From Pantoea coffeiphila (GTDB lineage: Bacteria; Pseudomonadota; Gammaproteobacteria; Enterobacterales; Enterobacteriaceae), in the NCBI RefSeq assembly GCF_016909495.1, contig NZ_JAFBFW010000009.1, forward strand, positions 1 through 64,000: a stretch of DNA of 64,000 nucleotides, read 5' to 3'. The stretch's first letter is position 1, and each line of letters opens with the position of its first letter. Made by a program: the position numbers and the translations under genes. Below the pieces are notes generated by a model. It was given only the letters and a program-made list of their open reading frames with translations. It did no database searches and had not been told where the DNA came from. Of the stretch, positions 9,122-21,878 are shown piece by piece.

Positions 9122-9373
9122 TTCTACATATCTGTTTTATATCGCCTAAAAATCTCCCCTTTTGAACGCACTGTAAATTCTGCTGGTCTGTTAATTCGGA
9201 TCATTCGAATCTACCCACCCTCATCAACCGTCCATTTTTCATCCAAAAACAACGACTACTTAACACTTACGCTAAGTCGATTTGACAATTTTTTGTGTCG
9301 ATTGCAAATGTATATACAGGAAAATACATGAACAGAAGACATGCATTGCAACATCACAACGGGCGGGGGTTAC

Positions 9374-10714
9374 ATGGTTTATTCGGGTAAAGTGAATATC
9401 CAACAGGCAATCGACGAAGCACCGGTTTCACGCTTTCACTGGGTGATTATCATCCTGGGATTTCTGATCCTCGCCATCGACGGGTTCGACACGGCGGCGA
9501 TGGGCTATATCGCCCCCACGCTGTCCAGCGACTGGGGAATTAAAAGGCAGGACCTCGGGCCGGTATTAAGCGCCGCGCTGCTCGGGCTTTCCATCGGCGC
9601 ACTGATCGCCGGGCCGGCCTCGGACAGACTGGGGCGTAAAAAGGTGCTGGTTTTCTCCTGCCTGTTCTTCGGGCTTGCCAGCCTGGGAACCGCCTACGCA
9701 CAAACGCTGAATACGCTGACGCTGTGGCGCTTTCTGACCGGTCTCGGGCTGGGCGCGGCGATGCCGAATGCGATTACGCTCGTCTCTGAGTTTGCCCCGA
9801 AGCGCTGCCGTTCTATGGCAATCAACACCATGTACTGCGGCTTTCCGCTGGGTGCGGCGGGCGGCGGGGCGATTTCGTCCTGGCTGATCCCTAACTATGG
9901 CTGGCATAGCGTTCTGCTGGCCGGAGCGATTGCGCCGCTGGCGCTCACCGTGTTGCTGGTTCTGTTCCTGCCGGAGTCGGTCAAATTCCTGGTACATCGC
10001 GGTAAAGACATTGTGCAAATCCGGCGCATTGCCCAGCGGTTTATTGCCGGGAGTCTGGCGCAGGTGACACATTTTTATCTCGATGAAGAACGTACCACCG
10101 GCAAAAAAGGCAGCGTGGCACAGCTGTTCAGTCAGCCGTGGCTGGCCGGTACGCTGATGCTGTGGATGACCTACTTTATGGGGCTGGTGATCTATTACGT
10201 GCTGCTGAGCTGGATGCCGACGCTGATGCTGGGGATGGGCTATCCGCTGGCGGAATCGGCCTGGCTGACCTCGCTGTTTACCTTCGGCGGCACGGCGGGG
10301 ATTCTGCTGGCGGGCTGGATGATGGACAGGTGGGAAGCACACAAGGTGGTGATGACCGGTTTTGCCCTGACGATGCTGTTTGCGCTGGCGCTGGGCTTCG
10401 AGAACAACCATATCGTGCTGTTCGGCGGGCTGATCTTCCTGATGGGCATTACCATGAACGGCGCGCAGTCGGGCCTGCAAACGCTGGCGGCCACCTTTTA
10501 TCCGACCCACTGCCGTGCCACGGGAATTGCATGGATGCAGGGCGTCGGGCGCTTTGGCGGCGTGGCAGGCACCATGATGAGCGCACAGCTGCTCTCTCAA
10601 CAATGGCAGGCCGACAGTATCCTGATGTTCCTCAGCGTGCCGGCACTGCTCGCGGCGGCAGCCACGCTGTATAAGCTGCAGCGCTATAAAACACAAAATC
10701 TGAGCGTCGCCTAA
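9374..10714 (+). CDS. MFS transporter, aromatic acid:H+ symporter (AAHS) type
   Basis: A 446-residue major facilitator with about 12 membrane segments. The first segment carries DGFDTAAMGYIAP, the Asp-Gly-Phe-Asp signature of AAHS transporters such as PcaK, and the loop motif GPASDRLGRKK follows. I chose the ATG at 374 bases past 9000 (MVYSGKVNIQQ) because GGGCGGGGG lies just upstream; an earlier ATG at 9341 lacks a site. No aromatic-ring degradation genes are beside it. The substrate, likely an aromatic or other organic acid, is inferred from family. Confidence 0.9.
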   Translation: MVYSGKVNIQQAIDEAPVSRFHWVIIILGFLILAIDGFDTAAMGYIAPTLSSDWGIKRQDLGPVLSAALLGLSIGALIAGPASDRLGRKKVLVFSCLFFGLASLGTAYAQTLNTLTLWRFLTGLGLGAAMPNAITLVSEFAPKRCRSMAINTMYCGFPLGAAGGGAISSWLIPNYGWHSVLLAGAIAPLALTVLLVLFLPESVKFLVHRGKDIVQIRRIAQRFIAGSLAQVTHFYLDEERTTGKKGSVAQLFSQPWLAGTLMLWMTYFMGLVIYYVLLSWMPTLMLGMGYPLAESAWLTSLFTFGGTAGILLAGWMMDRWEAHKVVMTGFALTMLFALALGFENNHIVLFGGLIFLMGITMNGAQSGLQTLAATFYPTHCRATGIAWMQGVGRFGGVAGTMMSAQLLSQQWQADSILMFLSVPALLAAAATLYKLQRYKTQNLSVA

Positions 10715-10720
10715 ACCCCG

Positions 10721-10755
10721 TTATCCTGCTCCCGCCTGGGGGCAGGATAAATTTG
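10721..10755 (+). terminator. Probable terminator after the AAHS transporter
   Basis: A perfect 9-bp inverted repeat TTATCCTGC/GCAGGATAA spans 10721-10750 and closes a GC-rich loop. It starts 6 bp after the stop codon. The following ATTTG is only weakly T-rich, so termination may be partial. Confidence 0.6.
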
Positions 10756-11082
10756 AGGGCAAACGCAGTTAGCTGAATGGTCAGCGGGATAAACGTCATC
10801 GCAAACGCTAACGGGTAATCGGTAGTGGCATAACCTTTATTAAAAATACGCATGACTGAATTATTTATTCAGCTGATACCGACTTAACGCCTTCTTTCTA
10901 ATTCCTCTCCGTTGAATAAACCCGAATATAAAATCACTTATCCACCTCGCACAGGCCGTTTCTACCCGCATCTCCCGCGTATTAAGTAAATTAAGATGGA
11001 TTAATTACCATCCTTGATATCCATCAAGGCGTGGGGAGCTGTTTTTGTTCAAAAAGGGCATAGGGGAAAATAAAGGGAAATA
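10756..11082. promoter_or_regulatory. Leader region of the DASS transporter with two inverted repeats
   Basis: I see no supported gene in this stretch. Two adjacent inverted repeats stand out: GATGG/CCATC around ATTAATTA at 10995-11012, and CCTTGAT/ATCAAGG around ATCC at 11012-11029. They lie 55-90 bp upstream of the start codon and may be operators or leader hairpins. A short minus-strand frame (about 10750-10853) reads as a hydrophobic peptide but I could not assign it. Confidence 0.45.
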
Positions 11083-12534
11083 ATGATGACTGAACAAGTG
11101 CAGGTAAAACTGGCATTTCCACTGTGGAAGGGCGTTTTCACGCTCTTTGTGGGCCTGCTAATCTGGTTTATGCCACCGCCCACCGGGCTGGATATTGTTG
11201 CGTGGCATATGTTTGCGGTCTTCGCCGCGACCATTCTGGCGATTATTTTAAAAGTGATGCCGATGGGCGCGGTAACCATGGTGGCGCTGGTCGTCTCGGC
11301 AATGACCGGGCTGACGCCGATCTCCGGCGGTGGCAGCGGCAAAGTGGCCGCACTGTCCGGCTTTGCCAACGGCACGATCTGGCTGATCGGTATCGCCATG
11401 TTTATCTCCCGCGCGGTGATTAAAACCGGGCTGGGCAGGCGCATCGCGCTGTGGTTTATCTCGAAATGCGGACACAGCATGCTCGGCGTGGCTTACGGTC
11501 TGGCGCTGTCCGATATGGTACTCGGCCCGGGCATTCCTTCCGCCTCGGCGCGCGGTGGCGGCATTATGTATCCCATCACCCAGTCGATTGCCACCGCATA
11601 CCAGTCCGAGCCGGGGCCAACGGCCAGAAAGGCCGGGGCATTCCTGATGATCTGCGTGTCGCAGATTGATGCCATTATCTGCGCAATGTTCCTGACGGCG
11701 ATGGCCGGAAACCCGCTGATTGCCGAGCTGGCTGCCAGCCAGGGGATTCAGGTTAACTGGGGGATCTGGTTCTTAGGTGCCATCGTGCCCGGTCTGCTGA
11801 CGCTGCTGATTATTCCTCTGTGCCTCTATTATATTTATCCACCGGAACTGAAAAAAACGCCGGAAATACCGGGCATCGCGCGGGAAGAGCTGCGCAAAAT
11901 GGGGCCAATGTCCCTTGCCGAAAAAATCCTGGCGTTCGACTTCGTGCTGCTGATCGTGCTGTGGACCGCGGGCGATATCTTCTTCCAGATCCCCGCCACG
12001 CTGTCGGCCTTTATTGGTCTGGTTATCCTGCTGCTCTCCAATATCATGTCGTGGAAGAACATTATTGAAGAGAAAACAGCGTGGGATACGATGTTCTGGT
12101 TCGCTGTGCTGGTGATGATGGCCAACGCCCTGAACAAATACGGCATGATTGCCTGGATCTCCAAGGGCATCGTGGGCTACATCGGCCACTTTGACTGGCT
12201 GCTGGTGTTCCTGGTGCTGATTCTGGTTTATTTCTACACCCGCTATTTCTTTGCCTCGGCGATGGCACATATTTCCGCGATGTATCTGGCCTTCCTGGCG
12301 GTATCCGTTTCGGTCGGCGTGCCGCCGCTGCTGGCCGCGCTGACGCTGGGCTACACCTCCAATCTGTCGATGGGGCTGACCCAGTATTCCGGCGGCCCCG
12401 GCCCGGCACTGTTCGGCTCCGGCTATAACTCTACCGGCCAGTGGTGGGGCGTCAGCTTCCTGGTGTCGATCGTTTCTATCGCCATCTGGCTGCTGGCCGG
12501 CGGCGCATGGATGAAAATCGTGGGCATCTGGTAA
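11083..12534 (+). CDS. DASS-family anion transporter (CitT/SodiT1-like dicarboxylate carrier)
   Basis: A 483-residue inner-membrane carrier of the divalent anion:Na+ symporter family, of the subgroup that includes CitT, TtdT and the plant 2-oxoglutarate/malate translocator. Characteristic parts are the loop with GFANGTIWLIGIAMFISRAV, the SASARGGGIMYPI segment, and GGPGPALFGSGYNSTGQWW near the C-terminus. About 12-14 hydrophobic segments are present. Probable substrates are C4- or C6-carboxylates, by antiport or symport. It stands alone; a convergent MFS gene lies beyond an octamer repeat. A start three bases later (second ATG) is equally possible. Confidence 0.9.
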   Translation: MMTEQVQVKLAFPLWKGVFTLFVGLLIWFMPPPTGLDIVAWHMFAVFAATILAIILKVMPMGAVTMVALVVSAMTGLTPISGGGSGKVAALSGFANGTIWLIGIAMFISRAVIKTGLGRRIALWFISKCGHSMLGVAYGLALSDMVLGPGIPSASARGGGIMYPITQSIATAYQSEPGPTARKAGAFLMICVSQIDAIICAMFLTAMAGNPLIAELAASQGIQVNWGIWFLGAIVPGLLTLLIIPLCLYYIYPPELKKTPEIPGIAREELRKMGPMSLAEKILAFDFVLLIVLWTAGDIFFQIPATLSAFIGLVILLLSNIMSWKNIIEEKTAWDTMFWFAVLVMMANALNKYGMIAWISKGIVGYIGHFDWLLVFLVLILVYFYTRYFFASAMAHISAMYLAFLAVSVSVGVPPLLAALTLGYTSNLSMGLTQYSGGPGPALFGSGYNSTGQWWGVSFLVSIVSIAIWLLAGGAWMKIVGIW

Positions 12535-12588
12535 CACTCACGTTCGCCAGCGGGCAGGCGCTCAGCCTGTCCGCTGCTGAGCGCCTTT

Positions 12589-12680
12589 CTGCCTGTCTGC
12601 CTGTCTGCCTGTCTGCCTGTCTGCCTGTCTGCCTGTCTGCCTGTCTGCCTGTCTGCCTGTCTGCCTGTCTGCCTGTCTGC
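12589..12680. repeat. Octamer tandem repeat (CTGCCTGT)n
   Basis: A perfect 8-bp direct repeat CTGCCTGT with 11.5 copies fills most of the gap between two convergent transporter genes. It starts 54 bp after the DASS stop codon and ends 28 bp beyond the MFS stop codon. There are no mismatches. It is a candidate variable-number tandem repeat. Because it lies after both genes, an effect on their 3' ends or on termination is possible, but a phase-variation switch of a start codon is not. Confidence 0.97.
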
Positions 12681-12708
12681 AACTTAATCGTTATCCGTGT
12701 TTTACTGG

Positions 12709-13899
12709 TTATCCGCGTTTTTTTATCGATATCAGCGTCAGCAGCGCCACTATTACCGGCACCAGCGATCCCCACAGTACGGCATTCCAGCCGAAAAGAT
12801 GCAGCAGCGCGCCGGAAGAGAATGACCCAATAATCATCACGCCAAAGACGATGAAATCATTCAGCGACTGCACCTGAGTTTTCTCTTCGGGGCGATGGAA
12901 ATCAACGATCTGCGCGGAAGCACCGGTAAAGCCAAAGTTCCAGCCCACGCCCAGCAGGATCAGCGACACCCAGTAATGACCAATCTCCGTTCCGGCCAGC
13001 CCGGCCAGCACAGAAAGAGCCGTAATCACCAGCCCGGCGGCGGCAACGCGAGAAGCACCAAAGCGGCTAATCAGCCCGCCGGTAAAGAAGCCCGGCGCGT
13101 ACATGGCAATCACGTGCCACTGGATGCCCAGGTTAGATGCCTCCTGAGAGATGCCGTGCATATGCATCGCCAGCGGCGCGGCGGTCATCAGAAAGTTCAT
13201 CACCATATAGGCAACCGCGCCGGTAAACACCACGCGGGCAAAACCCGGCTGGCGAATAATTTCAGCCAGCGGGCGGCCAGCGGCCCCAGCTTTATTCTGC
13301 GCGACCGGCTCGGCCGACTTCACGCCGGAGAGCACCAGGGCGGAAATCGCAGCCACCAGCGCCTGGGCAATAAAGGTCACCGCGAAGGTATGTGGCGGCC
13401 AGAGATCCATCGTGCCGGTCACCAGCATCGGGCCGATAACGCCCGCCGCCACGCCGCCGCCCATCACCAGCGAAAGCGCCCGCGCCCGGCGTTCTTTGCC
13501 CACGCCATCGGTGGCCGCAAAACGAAATGACAACCCTACCGCCGCATAGGCTCCGCCCATAAACGCGGCAAGGCAAAACAGAGAGAACGAACCTATGACC
13601 ACCGCCAGTGCGGCGGCCAGGCCGGTGATCACCCCGGTACCGGTGCCCAGCAGAAAGGCCGCTCTGCGGCCATGCCGACGGGCAAACGCGCCGAGCGGTA
13701 AAATACAGGCGGCCATCCCCAGCACAAAAATCGTCAGCGGCAGGGTGGCCAGCGTGCTGTCCGGTGCAATGCTATTACCGACAATCGCCCCCGTCGTATA
13801 GAACACCACCGCATTCGCACCCGCCAGCGCCTGAGCGGTGGCAAGGCGAAGAATATTGCTATTCTGCTGCCGCAGGGGCAGGGTTATTTCAGCGTTCAT
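12709..13899 (-). CDS. MFS transporter (putative drug/metabolite exporter)
   Basis: A 396-residue major facilitator with about 12 hydrophobic segments. The loop between segments 2 and 3 reads PLGAFARRHGRRAAF, a relaxed form of the MFS motif A. The later motif with VGWNFGFTGASAQIVDF is common in the YfcJ/EmrD-like and related groups. It is divergent from the LysR gene at 14127 across a 227-bp gap that contains a perfect 9-bp palindrome, so the LysR protein is a likely regulator. The substrate is unknown. Confidence 0.85.
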   Translation of the reverse strand: MNAEITLPLRQQNSNILRLATAQALAGANAVVFYTTGAIVGNSIAPDSTLATLPLTIFVLGMAACILPLGAFARRHGRRAAFLLGTGTGVITGLAAALAVVIGSFSLFCLAAFMGGAYAAVGLSFRFAATDGVGKERRARALSLVMGGGVAAGVIGPMLVTGTMDLWPPHTFAVTFIAQALVAAISALVLSGVKSAEPVAQNKAGAAGRPLAEIIRQPGFARVVFTGAVAYMVMNFLMTAAPLAMHMHGISQEASNLGIQWHVIAMYAPGFFTGGLISRFGASRVAAAGLVITALSVLAGLAGTEIGHYWVSLILLGVGWNFGFTGASAQIVDFHRPEEKTQVQSLNDFIVFGVMIIGSFSSGALLHLFGWNAVLWGSLVPVIVALLTLISIKKRG

Positions 13900-14126: not shown

Positions 14127-15035
14127 ATGGCAAACTACACATTGCGTCAGCTGAAGTATTTCGTCACGACGGTTGAATGTGGCAGCGTGGCGGAAGCTTC
14201 CCGCAAGTTATTTATCGCACAGCCGTCGATCTCAACGGCAATAAAGATTCTGGAAGAGAGCTTCGGCGTACAGCTTTTTATTCGCCATCACGCGCAGGGC
14301 GTGTCGCTAACGCCTTCCGGTACCCGTTTTCATCGTAAAGCGGTCAGACTGCTGCGAATGGCCCATGAGTTTGAGCAAAATGCGCTGGCCGATACGGACA
14401 TTGTGGCGGGTAAAATCGATATCGGCTGCTTTGAAACGGTCGCTCCGCTGATTCTGCCAAAGCTGATCCACGGCTTTAAGGCTCTGTATCCCGGCGTGGA
14501 GATTATGATCCGCGACGGCGAGCAGCACGAACTGTTGCAGGGGCTGGCCGCAGGCCGCTTCGACGTGGCGCTGCTCTATCAGCACGATCTCGACAACAGC
14601 CTGACCGTGGAACCGCTTGTGGCACCGAGAAAGCCCTATATTCTGCTGCCTGCGGCGCACCGACTGGCGCAGCAGAGTGCGGTTTCCCTGTCTGAACTGG
14701 CCGATGAACCAATGATCCTGCTGGATGTACAGCCCAGCCGTAACTACTTTATCAGCCTGTTTACCCGCGCAGGCATCACGCCGGATATTGTCTTTAGCTC
14801 GCCATCGATTGAAATGGTGCGCGGTATGGTTGGCCACGGTTTTGGTTTTGCCGTGCTGGTAACCCGCCCGAGTGGCAAGTTCAGCTACGACGGGAAGCCG
14901 CTGGCCATGGTGGAGCTGAAAGATGAGGTGGAGGGTTCCGGGCTGGCCGCCGCCTGGCTGGCGGGCGATCGGCTGACCAAGCCCGCCGGACTGTTCGTGG
15001 AGTACTGCAAAGCCGAACTACCGGGCATGCTGTAA
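14127..15035 (+). CDS. LysR-family transcriptional regulator
   Basis: A 302-residue LysR regulator. The N-terminal winged helix-turn-helix spans about residues 5-64 (LRQLKYFVTTVECGSVAEAS, then AQPSISTAIKILEE). The remainder is a periplasmic-binding-like effector domain starting near GKIDIGCFETVAP. It is divergent from the MFS gene and tail-to-tail (17 bp) with the M20 deacylase gene, so it could act on either unit; divergence makes the MFS gene the more likely target. The effector is unknown. Confidence 0.93.
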   Translation: MANYTLRQLKYFVTTVECGSVAEASRKLFIAQPSISTAIKILEESFGVQLFIRHHAQGVSLTPSGTRFHRKAVRLLRMAHEFEQNALADTDIVAGKIDIGCFETVAPLILPKLIHGFKALYPGVEIMIRDGEQHELLQGLAAGRFDVALLYQHDLDNSLTVEPLVAPRKPYILLPAAHRLAQQSAVSLSELADEPMILLDVQPSRNYFISLFTRAGITPDIVFSSPSIEMVRGMVGHGFGFAVLVTRPSGKFSYDGKPLAMVELKDEVEGSGLAAAWLAGDRLTKPAGLFVEYCKAELPGML

Positions 15036-15052: not shown

Positions 15053-16201
15053 TCAGGCGCGCAGCCATTGGGTCAGATTACCCAGCATTTTCATACAGGC
15101 ATCGATCTGTTCCACGCTGATGAACTCATCCGGTTTATGCCCCTGATCCATACTACCCGGACCGCAAACCAGCGTCGTCATACCCGCCTGATGAAATAAT
15201 CCGCCTTCCGTGCCAAAAGCAACGGTGCTGAAACGGTCGCAGCCGCACCATTCGGCCAGCAGGCTGGCGAACCGACACGTGGGATCGGTCAGCAGACCGG
15301 GATACTGGCTGAGCGGCTGAAAGGTGATGCTACAGCCGTCGGCTTTTTGCCGCATAGCGGGTAACAGCTCGCACTGCGCATACTGTGCGATCCGTTCAAT
15401 GACCGCGTCAGCCGGGGCATCGGGAAGATGGCGGATTTCAAAGTCAAACTGGCAGGACTGCGGCACGATATTTAACGCTGTGCCGCCGGAAATCGTACCA
15501 ACCTGCAGGGTGCTGAAGGCAGGATCGAAACGGCTGTCCTGCACCTCAGCCAGCTTGTCACCTTCATCCATCAGCCGGGTAATCAGCCGGGTAGCATACT
15601 CAATCGCATTCACCCCCTGCGGCGCATAGGCGGAATGACACGCGTGGCCGCGCACGTCGCAGCGCATCGCCACTTTACCCTTATGGCCGTAAACCGGCCG
15701 CATTTCAGTGGGTTCGCCAATAATGCACAACGCCGGTTTACTGGCCGCATCAGCCAGCAGCTCCGTCAGGCTGCGCACGCCCAGGCAGCCGACCTCTTCG
15801 TCGTAGGAGAATGCCAGGTGCAGCGGCAGTCGCAGCGGTTCGGCAACAAACGCCGGTACCGAGGCCAGCACGCAGGCGAGGAATCCCTTCATATCGGTGC
15901 TGCCGCGCCCGTAATAGCGGCCTTCCTGTTCCGTCAGCGCAAACGGCGGCACGCTCCACGTCTGACCCTCGACCGGCACCACATCGGTATGGCCGGAGAG
16001 CATCACGCCACCCGCTGTATCAGGGCCAATCACCGCGTAGAGATTCGCCTTGCTTCCGCTGTCATTATGCAGCAGCCGGGATGCCACGCCGTGTTCCGCC
16101 AGCCAGCTCTGAACAAAGTGAATCAGCGCAAGATTGGATTCACGGCTGGTGGTATCGAACGCCAGCAGCTGCGCCATTAAATCGCGGACCGAGCTACTCA
16201 T
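15053..16201 (-). CDS. M20 metallopeptidase, ArgE/acetylornithine deacetylase-like
   Basis: A 382-residue M20-family amidohydrolase, close in length to E. coli ArgE (383). Zinc-site motifs are complete: His71 and Asp73 in SGHTDVVPVEG, Asp103 in RGSTDMKG, Glu135-Glu136 in YDEEVGCLG, then IIGEPTEM and HACHSAYAP. Its place as last gene of an operon with an NCS1 permease, a RidA-like protein and a DUF1028 protein argues for deacylation or decarbamoylation of an imported N-substituted amino acid, not arginine synthesis. An ATG 15 bases upstream (16216) is possible; I chose the one that overlaps the previous gene by 8 bp. Confidence 0.88.
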   Translation of the reverse strand: MSSSVRDLMAQLLAFDTTSRESNLALIHFVQSWLAEHGVASRLLHNDSGSKANLYAVIGPDTAGGVMLSGHTDVVPVEGQTWSVPPFALTEQEGRYYGRGSTDMKGFLACVLASVPAFVAEPLRLPLHLAFSYDEEVGCLGVRSLTELLADAASKPALCIIGEPTEMRPVYGHKGKVAMRCDVRGHACHSAYAPQGVNAIEYATRLITRLMDEGDKLAEVQDSRFDPAFSTLQVGTISGGTALNIVPQSCQFDFEIRHLPDAPADAVIERIAQYAQCELLPAMRQKADGCSITFQPLSQYPGLLTDPTCRFASLLAEWCGCDRFSTVAFGTEGGLFHQAGMTTLVCGPGSMDQGHKPDEFISVEQIDACMKMLGNLTQWLRA

Positions 16202-16868
16202 CGCCGGGAACCCCATAGCCGGGAGCCTGGCGCGGATCGAGTGCTCGCGTCAGATAGTCCTGCGCCTGAGGTTGCCAGGCGCGCCAGAGATCGTTCAGCC
16301 GGGCCAATGGAGCAGCATCCGCCCAGTCAACTCTGAGATCGATCAGCGGCCAGCTGTGATCGCCCGCCACTTTCAGCGCGGCGGAATGGACCGGGCCAGC
16401 TTCTCCTCCCGCCGCCAGCCCCGCTTCCATCGCGAGGATCAGGCGCTCAGCCAGTGAACCCTGGCTTTTTTCAAATGCGCTGACCATAGCGACGATCACC
16501 TGTTTCCCTGCCAGCATATTTCCCGCAGCCACGCACGCTTTCCCCTGAACCGCATGATGCACACCCAGCGTCTGGCTGCCGCTAAATATGGCGGTGTGGC
16601 CATCGCGCCCAATCACCGTCACCTGGCGATACTGGCAGTGTGCGTCACGGGCCAGCGCGGCATCTAACGCACCCGGCACGGTCGCCCCCTGATCCAGTGC
16701 CGCGAGGATTTCCGGGCCAAGAGCGGGCAGGGTGATGTTCTGGCTGGATACTGCACCGACCCCGCTCAGTACCCACGGGCAGCGGGCGCCCACCGCCATG
16801 CTGGAGGAGCTGACGGCCACGCCAAACTGCCCGGTTTCACTACAGCGCGCCGCGATTGAAAAGGTCAC
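16194..16868 (-). CDS. DUF1028 family protein
   Basis: A 224-residue protein of the DUF1028 family. The start MTFSIAARCSETGQFGVAVS is the family signature, followed by GARCPWVLSGVGAVSSQN and GNMLAG. The family has been grouped with Ntn hydrolase-like folds, and members often occur with amidohydrolases and RidA proteins, but no reaction has been settled to my knowledge. It overlaps RidA upstream by 4 bp (ATGA type) and the M20 gene downstream by 8 bp, so expression is tightly coupled. It may cleave an amide or ring of the substrate brought in by the operon's permease (inference). Confidence 0.85.
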   Translation of the reverse strand: MTFSIAARCSETGQFGVAVSSSSMAVGARCPWVLSGVGAVSSQNITLPALGPEILAALDQGATVPGALDAALARDAHCQYRQVTVIGRDGHTAIFSGSQTLGVHHAVQGKACVAAGNMLAGKQVIVAMVSAFEKSQGSLAERLILAMEAGLAAGGEAGPVHSAALKVAGDHSWPLIDLRVDWADAAPLARLNDLWRAWQPQAQDYLTRALDPRQAPGYGVPGDE

Positions 16869-17293
16869 AGCGCCTCCTCATCCGGAATAACGGCTATAAC
16901 ATCAATTTCCATCAGCCACTGCGGCTGCGCCAGTGCAGACACCACCAGCCCGGTAGAGATAGGGAAAACGCCCTTCAGCCACTTTCCGACTTCCTGATAG
17001 ACCGGCTCACGGTAGCGGGGATCGATAAGATAGGTGGTCGTTTTGACGATGTGCGACAGATCGCTTCCCGCCTCTTCCAGCAGCTGTTTCACGTTTTTCA
17101 TCGCCTGCTCCGCCTGCGCGCGCGGATCGCCCAGCCCCACCAGCGCCCCGGAAAAATCGGTACCCACCTGGCCACGCACGTAAACGGTGTTACCTGCACG
17201 TACCGCCTGGCACAGATCGTTATCCAGGCTCTGATTTGGATAGGTCGCTTTGGTATTGAACATGCGAATGCGGGTATGCGTCGGTTTGCTCAT
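16865..17293 (-). CDS. RidA/YjgF-family protein lacking the canonical arginine
   Basis: A 142-residue RidA-superfamily protein with recognisable blocks GNTVYVRGQVGTDF, QAEQAMKNVKQLLEEAGSDL and HIVKTTTYLID. Typical RidA enzymes deaminate 2-aminoacrylate-type imines by means of an arginine in a PARS-like motif near the C-terminus. Here the matching segment reads FPISTGLVVSAL (about 110-121), so that arginine is absent, as in the Rid4-7 subfamilies. It is probably a pathway-specific Rid protein, not a general imine deaminase. It lies second in the operon, 56 bp after the permease gene. Confidence 0.88.
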   Translation of the reverse strand: MSKPTHTRIRMFNTKATYPNQSLDNDLCQAVRAGNTVYVRGQVGTDFSGALVGLGDPRAQAEQAMKNVKQLLEEAGSDLSHIVKTTTYLIDPRYREPVYQEVGKWLKGVFPISTGLVVSALAQPQWLMEIDVIAVIPDEEAL

Positions 17294-17349
17294 CTTTTAA
17301 CTCCTGTAAAACGGGTAAATGAGGCCGCATAACGCGGCCGGTGGAAAAT

Positions 17350-18756
17350 TCAGGCGGGTCGGCAGTAGCTTTGCTGCCTGCGGCGATACGCGCTGTTGCG
17401 GCTGGCCAGCCAGTAATAAAGCGGTGAGGTCACCAGCAGGCCGATCAGCCAGGAGAGATCCGCGCCGTTAATCCACGCGGAAACGGGGCCAACATAGAGC
17501 GGGGTATTCATAAAGGGGATCTGCACCACAATGCCGATGCCGTAAGCCAGCAGTGCCTGCGGGTTATAGCGGCCATAAATCCCGCCATCCACCTGAAAAA
17601 TAGAGCTGATGTCGTAGTTGCCTTTGTGGATGGCATAAAAATCAATCAGGTTGATCGCCGTCCAGGGCACCAGCACCACCAGCAGAGCCAGGACCAGATC
17701 CACAAAGTGGCTGATGAAATCCGCCGAGGCAAAGATCGCCGCCACCGAGCAGATCACCAGGGTGATTGCCGACAGCACGGCCCGGCTTTTACTGCCGGGT
17801 ATCCAGCGCCAGAAAAAGGTTTGCACCAGGGTAATTAACGACATCACCGCGCCGTACAGGTTAAGGGCGTTATGGCTGATCACGCTCAGCAAAAACAGCA
17901 CCAGCATCAGTGGCCCAATCGCACCGGTGGCAGCCCTGACGGCGTCCATGGTTTGCAGGCCCGGCGGGGTCGCCAGTACCGCCACGGCACCAAAGATAAA
18001 TGACAGGCTGGAGCCGAGCGTCGATCCCCAGTAAGTCGCCCAGAACGTACCTGCTACGGACACATTTTCCGGCAAATAGCGGGAATAATCGGAAACGTAG
18101 GGGGCAAAAGCGATCTGCCACAGCGCCGCCAGCGACACCGTTGCCAGCCAGCCGTAAAGTGAAAATCCGCCGCGCGTCAGGAAATCCGCCGTATGGATAT
18201 GGCTAAAGATATAGCCGAAGCCCAGCACGATACCGATCCCCAGCACCCAGGTCCCGATGCGGTTCAGCACGTGGATAAACCGGTAGCCGATAATGCCGAT
18301 TATCCCGGAACCCACAGCTCCGATAATAATCCCGACCGGCAGCGGCACAGCGGGAGCGATGCCGTGCAGCGACTCACCGGCCAGGACGATATTCGAGGTA
18401 AAAAAACCGATATACATCACTCCGGCAATCGCCACCACCAGCAAAGAACCCAGCGAGCCGAACTGCGCACGGCTCTGAATCATTTGCGGAATCCCCATCT
18501 GCGGCCCCTGTGCGGAGTGCAGCGCCATCAGCGCACCGCCGGCCAGATGGCCGACCAGAATGGCCACCACGCCCCACAGCAAGTTCAGATGAAACAGCTG
18601 AACGGCCAGTGCGCCGGTGACAATCGGCAGCGGAGCGATATTTCCGCCAAACCACAGGGTAAACAGATCGCGGGTTTTACCGTGACGATCGGCCGGGGGA
18701 ACATAGCCAATAGTGTGTTTCTCAATCAGCGGGGGCGAAGTTTCTGTTGGCGACAT
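17350..18756 (-). CDS. NCS1-family permease (cytosine/purine/hydantoin type)
   Basis: A 468-residue nucleobase:cation symporter-1 with about 12 membrane segments. Visible family features are the N-terminal DLFTLWFGGNIAPLPIVTGA, the QFGSLGSLL loop and FAPYVSDYSRYLPENVS. Relatives import cytosine, allantoin, hydantoins or similar N-heterocycles. I chose the ATG at 18756 because GGAG lies 6 bp upstream; a TTG 12 bases earlier is the alternative. It is the first gene of the operon with the RidA-like, DUF1028 and M20 genes, so its cargo is presumably their substrate. Confidence 0.9.
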   Translation of the reverse strand: MSPTETSPPLIEKHTIGYVPPADRHGKTRDLFTLWFGGNIAPLPIVTGALAVQLFHLNLLWGVVAILVGHLAGGALMALHSAQGPQMGIPQMIQSRAQFGSLGSLLVVAIAGVMYIGFFTSNIVLAGESLHGIAPAVPLPVGIIIGAVGSGIIGIIGYRFIHVLNRIGTWVLGIGIVLGFGYIFSHIHTADFLTRGGFSLYGWLATVSLAALWQIAFAPYVSDYSRYLPENVSVAGTFWATYWGSTLGSSLSFIFGAVAVLATPPGLQTMDAVRAATGAIGPLMLVLFLLSVISHNALNLYGAVMSLITLVQTFFWRWIPGSKSRAVLSAITLVICSVAAIFASADFISHFVDLVLALLVVLVPWTAINLIDFYAIHKGNYDISSIFQVDGGIYGRYNPQALLAYGIGIVVQIPFMNTPLYVGPVSAWINGADLSWLIGLLVTSPLYYWLASRNSAYRRRQQSYCRPA

Positions 18757-19079
18757 AGCAGGCTCCAATGTCAGAAAGTGCAGGGGATTTCGAGGCGTCG
18801 ACGCATCGTTTTTTTATTGAGGCGATAATGCGCACTCTTTTTTCGACGGGTAAATTAGTAAGTTTATGGTCAGAGAGAATGAAAAAACTTGGCAGGGCAA
18901 ACCAGTGGTGATTTAACGAAAATTCAACAGTTGCGACATATGAGTAACATTGACCGGAAACGAACTCCCGCTGCCTGAATCGTTAATTTATCGTCAATGA
19001 TGAACTTAATAATATTTTACCGTCTCTGATTCGCTCCCTAGGCTGCATTTGACGATTCCATAAGCCTGAGGATAGAGAG
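18757..19079. promoter_or_regulatory. Divergent promoter region, NCS1 operon and flavin monooxygenase
   Basis: A 323-bp gap between divergent genes. It is AT-rich in its central part (about 18820-19030) and I see no open reading frame that deserves a call. It should hold the promoters of both units. A GAGGATAGAGAG stretch just before 19080 is the ribosome binding site of the monooxygenase gene. Confidence 0.5.
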
Positions 19080-20330
19080 ATGACGCCAGAAATAACCTTC
19101 ATTGATACGCTGGTTGTCGGTGCCGGTCAGGCAGGTGTGGCAATGAGCGAACACCTGACGCGGCTGGACATCCCCCACATTGTGTTAGAAAAAAATCGTA
19201 TTGCTGAAGCCTGGCGCACCGGCCGATGGGATTCACTGGTCGCCAATGGCCCCGCCTGGCACGACCGCTTTCCCGGCATGGCGTTTTCCGGTATCAGCCC
19301 TGATAGCTTTGTACCTAAAGAGCGCGTGGCGGACTATATGGAAGCCTACGCCAGCCGCTTCAATGCCCCCATTCGCACCGGTGTAGAGGTGCGGCGCGTC
19401 GATCGCAACATTGGCAAGCCCGGCTTTCGTGTAGAAACCTCCGCCGGCGTGTTTGAAGCCCGCCATCTGGTGGTGGCTACCGGCCCGTTCCAGTGCCCGG
19501 CGATTCCGTCCATTGCACCGCAGACCGCAGAACTGACGCAGCTGCATTCGGCACATTATCGAAACCCCGCGCAGCTCCCGGATGGAGCAGTGATGATTGT
19601 CGGTGCGGGTTCATCCGGTGTGCAGATCGCCGAGGAACTGAATCGCGCCGGGAAAGCAGTCTATCTTTCCGTTGGTCCGCACGACCGGCCGCCGCGCAGC
19701 TATCGCGGGCGCGATTTTTGCTGGTGGTTAGGGGTGCTTGGCCTGTGGGATAAAGCGACCACGGAACCGGGCAAAGAACACGTGACGATCGCCGTCAGCG
19801 GCGCAAACGGCGGCCATACGGTTGATTTCCGCAAGCTGGCGGAGGAAGGGGTCAGGCTGGTTGGCCGCACGAAGCGTTTTGCCAACGGTGTGGTGGAATT
19901 TGAAAACGATCTGGCGCAGAACATCGTGCGCGGGGATGAAAACTATCTCTCCCTGCTCGATGCCGCAGATGAGTGGGTCACACGCAACGGTCAGGATTTA
20001 CCGGAAGAGCCGCAGGCACGGATCATTCGCCCGGCGCCTGCCTGTATGACCTCACCGGAGCGACAGCTGAATCTGGCCGCAAACAACATCACCACGATTA
20101 TCTGGGCGACGGGCTTTACCTCGGATTATCGCTGGCTGAACGTTAATGCCTGTGATGCACAGGGCAAACCACAGCATCAGCGCGGCGTATCCTCGGAACC
20201 CGGGGTTTATTTCCTCGGTTTACCGTGGCTCTCCAGGCGCGGTTCGTCATTTATCTGGGGCGTATGGCACGATGCCAAATATATCGCTGACCAGATTGCC
20301 ATTCAGCGCAACTACCTTACCTGGCAGTAA
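19080..20330 (+). CDS. Flavin-containing monooxygenase-like NAD(P)/FAD oxidoreductase
   Basis: A 416-residue flavoprotein with two dinucleotide-binding motifs: VVGAGQAGVAMSE at about residues 12-24 for FAD, and VGAGSSGVQIAEEL at about 176-189 for NADPH. Between them LHSAHYRNP occupies the place of the FMO identifying sequence and resembles the HSxxY form of YUCCA-type enzymes more than the FxGxxxH form. A C-terminal ATGF motif (IWATGFTSDYRWL) is present. It probably hydroxylates or oxygenates a small organic compound. It is divergent from the NCS1 operon and could act on the same substrate. Substrate unknown. Confidence 0.87.
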   Translation: MTPEITFIDTLVVGAGQAGVAMSEHLTRLDIPHIVLEKNRIAEAWRTGRWDSLVANGPAWHDRFPGMAFSGISPDSFVPKERVADYMEAYASRFNAPIRTGVEVRRVDRNIGKPGFRVETSAGVFEARHLVVATGPFQCPAIPSIAPQTAELTQLHSAHYRNPAQLPDGAVMIVGAGSSGVQIAEELNRAGKAVYLSVGPHDRPPRSYRGRDFCWWLGVLGLWDKATTEPGKEHVTIAVSGANGGHTVDFRKLAEEGVRLVGRTKRFANGVVEFENDLAQNIVRGDENYLSLLDAADEWVTRNGQDLPEEPQARIIRPAPACMTSPERQLNLAANNITTIIWATGFTSDYRWLNVNACDAQGKPQHQRGVSSEPGVYFLGLPWLSRRGSSFIWGVWHDAKYIADQIAIQRNYLTWQ

Positions 20331-20441: not shown

Positions 20442-21878
20442 TTAGCCTGCCGTTTTCTCCGCAGTGCGAGTTTTCTTCACTGCCTGCAAAATCACCGGCT
20501 CCAGCAGTCGGGCCACGGCAGCAAAAGCGGGCACCACCACCGAATTCCCAAACTGACGATAGGACTGGGTATCCGACACCGGAATACGAAACGTCTTTTC
20601 CCCCGGCTTTTCGAAGCCCATCAGGCGAGCACATTCACGCGGCGTTAACCTGCGCGGGCGGTGTTCAAGGTTGGCCGCATCGTGGAACGATTTCTCGCCC
20701 AGCGCTTTATCCCATCCCCGGTCGATCAGGATCTCAGAGCCATCCTTGTGGTAACGCGCGGAAAGGGTGCGTGATACCACCTGACGATCGGCAGGTGACA
20801 CCAGTCCGTAGCCAAAACCATTACCTTTAGCCTGGTGTTTCTTCGCGTAGTTGTAGAGGTACTCCCACAGTTTTACCGTCAGGATATATTTGCTCTCAAC
20901 CTGCTTATCCAGCAGATCGGCAAAGGCGGGGCGCTGCGGCGGATAGAACTTCGCAATATCGCGCAGGGTAAAGTCTTGTGCCAGGCCGAGATCGCGGCGG
21001 AAACCCACCAGCACAATACGCTCGCGGTGCTGCGGTAAAAAATGTTTGCCGTCGATGATTTTGGGATCGGCCGCACCGTTAACATCAGCATCAGCGACGT
21101 CGTAACCCAGCTCATCCAGCGTTTGCATGATCACGCGAAACGTTTTGCCTTTATCGTGGCTTTTCAGGTTTTTTACGTTCTCCAGCACGAAGATTGCCGG
21201 TTTTTTGACGGCAATAATTCGCGCCACATCGAAGAACAGCGTGCCCTGCGTATCACATTCAAAACCGTGCGCACGGCCGAGGGAATTCTTTTTGCTGACG
21301 CCCGCCAGGCTGAACGGCTGGCAGGGAAAACCCGCCAGCAGCACGTCGTGCTGCGGGATCTGATGATCGATATGAGCGTAGGCTTCCGCTTCGGCCACCT
21401 CGGGTTTATCGCTCAGCGTGACCTTGCGGATATCGGTATTAAACGTGTGCTCGTGCTCATCGTTAAACCAGTTAGCCCGGTAGGTTCTGACCGCGTGCGG
21501 GTTCCACTCGCTGGTGAACACGCACTGACCGCCAATCGCCTCAAAGCCGCTACGAATGCCCCCGATACCGGCGAAGAGATCGATAAAGCGGAACGGATAG
21601 TGGGGATGATGCGACGGTGGCTGCGGCAGCATGGCCTCAAGCGCGCTGACTTCCGCTGCGGTTAATGCCTGTGCGGCAGATTTTCCGCTTATCCAGCGGC
21701 TTACCGACTCACGCGTCCAGCCGTCACCGCCGACCGATTGCAAATGTTCGGCAACGGTCCGTCGATCGTAAATTTCCAACACCCGCAGCAGCAGTGCGAG
21801 ATCTTCCGCGATGCGGGCCTGTAATCCTTCACGGGAACCGGCCATCAGCGGCTGCACGGCAGGCGGTAATTCTTTCAT
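20442..21878 (-). CDS. dcm: DNA cytosine-5 methyltransferase Dcm
   Basis: A 478-residue C5-methyltransferase, closely similar to E. coli Dcm (472 residues), which methylates the second cytosine of CCWGG. Motif I is [16 protein letters not shown], motif IV has the catalytic cysteine in [18 protein letters not shown], and motif VI is [15 protein letters not shown]. The motif X region [13 protein letters not shown] is near the C-terminus. In E. coli the mismatch endonuclease gene vsr overlaps the 3' end of dcm; here only 111 bp separate dcm from the convergent gene, so vsr is absent at this place. Confidence 0.95.

Follow-up and report, generated by a model that had tools for sequence, protein, structure and literature searches.

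The 64,000-nucleotide stretch of Pantoea coffeiphila contig NZ_JAFBFW010000009.1 analysed here (the window) carries a compact operon that we assign to the hin system of histamine breakdown. Gene calls and Pfam matches bear out the four close-packed genes for an NCS1 permease, a RidA-like protein, a DUF1028 protein and an M20 deacylase that a first-pass annotation had read from the letters alone, and the divergent flavin monooxygenase gene at the operon start and the LysR gene at its end are both present where it had placed them (Table 1). The permease and RidA-like genes are 56 bp apart, the RidA-like and DUF1028 genes overlap by 4 bp and the DUF1028 and M20 genes by 23 bp, and the LysR gene converges on the end of the M20 gene at a spacing of 17 bp. 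The M20 protein scores 552 bits against NCBIfam PRK07522 (cut-off 412). The permease reaches 149.8 bits against PF02133 (cut-off 23.5) and 81.5 bits against NCBIfam TIGR00800, below the cut-off of 353; a phmmer search of it against PDB chains gave no match at 0.001.

Table 1. Genes and predicted operators at the locus; hin names are predicted assignments
Feature	Position	Strand	Basis
NCS1 permease, first gene of operon	18756-17350	-	PF02133, E 1.3e-43
hinL, RidA-like	17293-16865	-	PF01042, E 7.5e-23
hinH, DUF1028	16868-16194	-	PF06267, E 4.1e-68
hinG, M20 deacylase, ArgE-like PRK07522 group	16216-15053	-	PF01546, E 4.2e-33
hinF, flavin adenine dinucleotide (FAD) monooxygenase, divergent	19080-20330	+	71% to G532 monooxygenase; tree
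hinK, LysR-type regulator	14127-15035	+	72.5% identity to 3fzv
Predicted HinK operator for hinF	18995-19019	-	score 22.1; 61-85 bp before hinF ATG
Predicted HinK operator for permease-hinLHG	18851-18875	+	score 18.1; 95-119 bp before permease ATG

The first-pass annotation took the operon to be uncharacterised, a status that falls with the hinFLHG genes of Pseudomonas putida U and Pseudomonas aeruginosa, an orthologous operon that excerpts of the literature describe as characterised and with a known substrate. In the excerpts of PMC6467879 used here, P. putida HinF is an EC 1.14.13.5 FAD-monooxygenase, HinL an enamine deaminase, HinH an amidase and HinG is given as EC 3.5.1.8; HinI, HinA and HinD are listed as well. 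Those of the review PMC8231116 equate hinF, hinL, hinH and hinG with PA5393, PA5392, PA5391 and PA5390, and hinK, hinD, hinA and hinC with PA0218, PA0219, PA0220 and PA0221, and state that HinK of P. aeruginosa answers to imidazole-4-acetic acid and regulates hinD, hinFLHG and its own gene. According to an excerpt of PMC2542419, a PA0220 mutant is histamine-defective and PA0219-PA0221 are histamine-induced.

We used a P. paraeruginosa-like genome (G532) as the reference for orthology, in place of PAO1 or P. putida U sequences. Its LysR protein is identical at 297 of 298 residues to PDB 3fzv, a P. aeruginosa LysR structure, and the corresponding gene is adjoined by genes for an aldehyde dehydrogenase, an amino-acid permease and a class III aminotransferase, which is the hinDAC order. 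The same chromosome carries an M20-DUF1028-RidA-monooxygenase series that fits hinG-H-L-F, and both gene orders agree with the review's PA5393-PA5390 and PA0218-PA0221. The window proteins match this set in the same order, with identities of 71% for HinF (408 aa), 96% for HinL (136 aa), 66% for HinH and 65% for HinG (366 columns); the DUF1028 protein thus corresponds to HinH, and the window's F, L, H and G are, judged by sequence, close relatives of hinFLHG in one cluster.

Likeness to the Pseudomonas system extends to the closely related LysR protein and to a hinDAC set elsewhere in the genome. On contig G000:C5 (L160) an operon holds a hinC orthologue (79% to G532) with relatives of hinA (64%) and hinD (71%), and together with the window cluster it makes the histamine-to-aspartate route of this genome look complete. 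Unlike in Pseudomonas hinFLHG, the window's hinF is divergent from L-H-G and the L-H-G transcript is headed by the NCS1 permease gene; hinK, which lies beside hinDAC in P. aeruginosa, stands here at the end of the hinF-permease-LHG cluster. The putative histamine genes of Brevibacterium, as excerpts of PMC6467879 present them, include HinF, HinL, HinH and HinI homologues near each other by locus tag and homologues of HinA, HinD and HinG, but differ in a histamine oxidase, in weaker homologues of HinC and HinK (32-36%) and in a HinG homologue that lies apart by locus tag. We put at about 0.9 the probability that the locus is a hin module leading from imidazole-4-acetate to aspartate in histamine breakdown, here with a permease gene added. 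The gene identities and order, hinDAC and the predicted operators come from the sequence at hand, and the pathway, inducer and regulator from the excerpted Pseudomonas work. The hydantoins, N-acyl amino acids and ureides proposed as substrates at first pass give way to imidazole-4-acetate, which the evidence indicates instead.

The two outer genes fit this assignment. In a phylogenetic tree the window monooxygenase clusters with HinF of Pseudomonas and is separated (split 97/99) from three rows of the Nit1C-like MSMEG_0569 group; one of these rows sits on a very long branch and inner forks are partly unresolved. The product of hinF is predicted to be an imidazole-4-acetate monooxygenase, after the EC 1.14.13.5 that the excerpted PMC6467879 assigns to the P. 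putida enzyme. Identity with the MSMEG_0569 (Nit1C) flavoprotein was rejected: the window protein scores 378.5 bits against TIGR04046, whose cut-off is 498, and is separate in the tree. A separate MSMEG_0569-like flavoprotein, 42% identical to the window's HinF and possibly part of a Nit1C cluster, is encoded in the same genome at G000:C6:264920-266107. The LysR protein shares 216 of 298 residues with 3fzv. From the species, the near-identical G532 gene beside hinDAC and the gene order, we infer that 3fzv/6m5f is HinK, and the window's hinK is predicted to respond to imidazole-4-acetate. Among 298 Pseudomonadaceae genomes, with orthologues called at E 1e-100 for HinK and E 1e-140 for HinF from the best six or seven candidates per genome (single misses are possible), 110 have both proteins, 2 HinK alone, 11 HinF alone and 175 neither. 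Nine of the 11 HinF-alone genomes carry solely a diverged monooxygenase (59-61%), which has another gene context in the three whose surroundings were fetched (G419, G502 and G557).

Conserved linkage of the DUF1028 neighbourhood, in keeping with the first-pass annotation, is what the survey of DUF1028 loci found, with RidA-like, M20 and monooxygenase genes recurring. The loci form a non-random sample, chosen by DUF1028, monooxygenase or LysR similarity; gene content was determined by tblastn, and the count excludes loci below 13.9 kb and ten more that were duplicates or off-cluster. Across the 60 loci with DUF1028 identity of at least 40%, a RidA-like gene lies within 1.5 kb in 53, an M20 gene within 6 kb in at least 51 (a lower bound, as BLAST missed the annotated M20 genes of L049 and L050) and a monooxygenase gene within 8 kb in 49; in 16 there is an NCS1 permease gene, belonging to one of three types, within that same distance. 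None of the 10 more distant loci (below 40%) had a RidA-like, M20, monooxygenase or NCS1 gene by BLAST. The linkage is not due to chance. Annotated plasmids show the same recurring set of NAD(P)/FAD oxidoreductase, RidA, DUF1028 and argE-like M20 genes, often with a 'cytosine permease' and a LysR gene. The set terminates in aspartate ammonia-lyase on the two actinobacterial plasmids examined, and a primary-amine oxidase and an aldehyde dehydrogenase adjoin it on an Arthrobacter plasmid, a pattern that suggests histamine.

Other DUF1028 surroundings were also seen. A third, distant DUF1028 gene of the window's genome (37-38%; G000:C7:53137-53721, L031:9638-10288) adjoins genes resembling a peptide ABC transporter, and its locus is one of the 10 without partner genes. 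Seven loci (L048 on Klebsiella pneumoniae plasmid pKLZT-2, L013, L014, L133 and L141-L143) represent a HinK-less type with DUF1028 and a diverged monooxygenase, joined by a type II dehydroquinase-like gene in all seven, a GhrA-like reductase in five, an alpha-hydroxy acid oxidase in four and M20 or RidA in the stretch in five; the L048 cluster sits on a plasmid typed conjugative, and imidazole-lactate is a conceivable substrate of this type. In L054 (Aminobacter), L055 (Bacillus badius) and L016 (Woeseiaceae), a 4-hydroxyphenylacetate 3-hydroxylase-like oxygenase gene adjoins RidA-DUF1028, and no HinF was found in the fetched stretches of these three loci.

The enzymes suggest how such a route could run. 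In the DUF1028 protein, Thr2 is invariant in all 92 aligned sequences, the window protein and 2imh included. An AlphaFold2 model built from 33 sequences (predicted local distance difference test 95.1, predicted template modelling score 0.92) has its best fold match in 2imh (Z 32.8, 217 residues), which is SPO2555 of Ruegeria (Silicibacter) pomeroyi, 28-30% identical, with a title that gives just the Pfam DUF number, and with the same fold and N-terminal Thr position. The model also matches HslV and proteasome beta subunits (Z 11.4-12.4, 143-169 residues, root-mean-square deviation 3.3-5.0), and in many structure-match rows its residue 2 superposes on the first mature residue. These N-terminal nucleophile (Ntn) hydrolases share the fold and the N-terminal Thr position with HinH but are proteases and only 7-15% identical. 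HinH is thus modelled as a proteasome-like Ntn hydrolase that would use Thr2 as nucleophile after removal of Met. Our search of the open-access literature found no report on DUF1028, PF06267 or COG3342.

The RidA-like protein had been described as an imine-type enzyme, a label that its sequence makes doubtful. The position of Arg105 of Escherichia coli RidA is occupied by Ser in 78 of 79 homologues, and by Phe in one. In excerpts of PMC4433059 (Niehaus 2015; see also PMC5619798), imine hydrolysis is almost lost when this Arg is changed, and Ser is said to occupy the position in about 10% of RidA proteins, suggesting other functions; HinL shares fold family and length with the imine deaminases of these two papers but has Ser for Arg105. 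Of the four proteins, HinL shows the strongest conservation in 64 of 66 loci (some overlapping), with median identities to the window proteins of 94% for HinL, 71% for HinF, 65% for HinH and 60% for HinG. Such strong constraint in the absence of the imine-deaminase Arg makes a dedicated role in the pathway likelier for HinL than scavenging. HinG is predicted to be an N-formyl-L-aspartate deformylase (EC 3.5.1.8, as for HinG in the excerpted PMC6467879).

In the pathway that we propose, hinDAC would convert histamine to imidazole-4-acetate, which the permease may also take up from outside, and HinF would turn it, with NAD(P)H and O2, into imidazolone-acetate. HinH, as an Ntn amidohydrolase with N-terminal Thr, would open the imidazolone ring at the amide bond to give N-formimino-L-aspartate, HinL of the Ser type would remove the formimino nitrogen to give N-formyl-L-aspartate, and HinG would deformylate this to L-aspartate; the division of labour between HinH and HinL is our suggestion, and their steps could be swapped. 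HinK would sense imidazole-4-acetate and activate hinF, the permease operon and hinDAC on its other contig. The chemistry of the middle steps is established knowledge. The notion of an operon that looks complete for importing and degrading a cyclic nitrogen compound has survived, with predicted amide-opening and N-formyl-cleaving steps.

Members of the NCS1 family with known substrates transport hydantoin or nucleobases. Copies of the window's permease adjoin hin genes in Pseudomonas (82-85% identity; L128, L139 and L164-L167) and in Burkholderia/Paraburkholderia (76-78%; L022, L026 and L029). We surveyed 77 of the 121 HinF-positive Pseudomonadaceae genomes, where a HinC orthologue (at least 76%) occurs in 58 and the permease (83-85%) in 8. 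It directly adjoins hin genes in 6 of these 8, and 5 of those 6 are without a HinC orthologue; the adjoining permease tends to occur where histamine conversion is missing. Given this tendency, and its place behind a predicted operator of an imidazole-4-acetate-induced system, the permease may import imidazole-4-acetate or a close imidazole, to which we give roughly an even chance.

The predicted HinK operators rest on a 25-bp motif obtained here by Gibbs sampling from 58 non-Erwinia promoters (48 hinF and 10 hinD), independently of the published operator; 50 of the 58 score above 10. When both strands of the window were scanned, the top two sites both fell between hinF and the permease gene, with the third best at 14.6, and the promoter of this genome's hinD carries one scoring 19.2. 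Across 800 kb of this genome no site reached 22 and four reached 18 (best 20.9). Plain shuffling of the 323-bp stretch, repeated 5000 times, reached 22.1 in 1 case and 18 in 14, and never gave two sites of at least 18; nor did any of 203 real stretches of that size from the same genome, with equal or higher A+T, hold a site of at least 18. No palindromes common to the promoters were found.

Several points weigh against the assignment or parts of it. The HinK name of 3fzv/6m5f is our own assignment by comparison, and the Pseudomonas enzyme assignments (de la Torre 2018, Wang 2021) were taken via excerpts of the review PMC8231116 and of the Brevibacterium paper PMC6467879. There is no aspartate ammonia-lyase gene in the operon (the rest of the genome was not searched). 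The motif scores no higher than 10 in eight of the 58 promoters it was trained on, and the AT-rich intergenic stretch can yield more than 20 when shuffled. HinK-less clusters score variably, up to 21.4 and 20.4 (A. guillouiae, L021) and 19.1 (B. badius, L055); since such clusters in AT-rich genomes can reach a score near 20, as did 800 kb of the organism's own genome once, such a score proves little alone. No operator was found upstream of hinK (score 0.5), though hinK of P. aeruginosa is autoregulated according to the excerpted PMC8231116. Permease promoters from 13 clusters, the window and two close Erwinia included, score 10.9-18.1 in eight cases, 7.0-9.6 in three, and 0.5 and -6.7 in the remaining two. 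In 2 of the 8 permease-bearing genomes the permease lies about 11 and about 149 kb from the hin genes, 14 of the 19 HinC-less genomes also lack it, and the window's genome has both hinDAC and the permease.

The last three points, together with the occurrence of the permease (at least 83%) in just 8 of 77 HinF-positive genomes, are what a bystander permease with a substrate of its own would predict, a view compatible with the hin module in everything except the permease. Its place beside hin genes in 6 of 8 genomes, 5 of these 6 without HinC when 58 of 77 overall have it, and the predicted HinK site in front of the window's copy argue the other way, and we regard a bystander as a serious possibility somewhat short of even. 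We would likewise place a little below even the joint proposal that the NCS1 permease takes up imidazole-4-acetate, allowing its use without histamine, and that HinL exemplifies the Ser-type tenth of RidA proteins, hydrolysing a formimino or imidazolone compound as its own step of the pathway in place of stray-imine clearing.

The hin assignment has also to accommodate a second FLHG set in the same genome, on contig G000:C1 at about 1027-1037 kb (L030:8452-18082). Alongside it are genes for a LysR protein (59% identity to 3fzv), a different type of NCS1 protein, a GMC oxidoreductase and an aldehyde dehydrogenase with 63% identity to HinD, and its hinF has a predicted operator (score 18.9). Its entry genes are nearly identical on Klebsiella variicola plasmid pJNQH579-1 (L027; NCS1 99%, GMC 97%, dehydrogenase 96%), which points to recent exchange. 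Judging from the gene kinds, a GMC alcohol oxidase replacing the aminotransferase would fit imidazole-4-ethanol as the entry compound, which is a guess. A rival view would leave histamine to the C1 cluster, with the window's module retuned to another imidazole or cyclic amide, such as imidazole-lactate, imidazole-ethanol or a hydantoin, which its NCS1 permease would import. The second set with its own operator would be consistent with this, as would the known NCS1 substrates and other clusters that combine LHG with different oxygenases and transporters. The window set, however, has the nearer HinK (72% against 59% to 3fzv), its monooxygenase falls among the Pseudomonas and Erwinia HinF rows of the tree (inner forks partly unresolved), and it is the C1 set that has its own entry genes, the GMC oxidoreductase and HinD-like dehydrogenase, instead of hinC. 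We therefore consider retuning improbable.

A Rut-like route acting on a nucleobase, suggested by part kinds shared with E. coli rutABCDEFG (flavin oxygenase, RidA-like protein, amidohydrolase, nucleobase permease) and by weak similarity of the window RidA to the RutC model (29.2 bits, below the cut-off of 169.1), we judge extremely improbable, since all four enzymes are close to hin proteins in the same order, the Arg kept in RutC is missing from HinL, and the six scanned cluster proteins gave no match to luciferase-like oxygenase, isochorismatase, alpha/beta hydrolase or flavin reductase, the kinds to which RutA, RutB, RutD and RutF belong. This reading and a thiamin/hydroxymethylpyrimidine one, both drawn from gene kinds, were dropped on finding the hin orthology.

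Around the locus, genes for a major facilitator superfamily protein and a Na/sulfate symporter (9341-13899) adjoin the cluster here and in two Erwinia relatives (G011 and G013), and are not counted as its members. Directly after the symporter gene, an 8-bp tandem repeat, GCCTGTCT, occupies 12583-12680 (12.2 copies, 98% matches). On the other side, a C-5 cytosine DNA methylase gene (20442-21878) is convergent with hinF. A 9-bp tandem repeat of 12.7 copies (L160:13579-13692) lies some 90 bp before the hinD reading frame, past the predicted HinK site.

The pathway and the operon type are already known in Pseudomonas, and what is new here is modest: the permease under a predicted HinK operator, an arrangement shared with certain Pseudomonas, and the second hin cluster with its GMC oxidoreductase and HinD-like dehydrogenase. 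Among the open-access matches listed, none describes hin genes from Erwinia or an NCS1 permease alongside hin genes. The hin core is common to Erwinia, Pseudomonas, Burkholderia and Klebsiella plasmids, with differing entry enzymes, and the permease is a candidate transporter for imidazole-4-acetate. For the families concerned, the assignment links DUF1028 and a group of RidA proteins without the Arg to a single defined pathway, so that both can be assayed with a known substrate pair.

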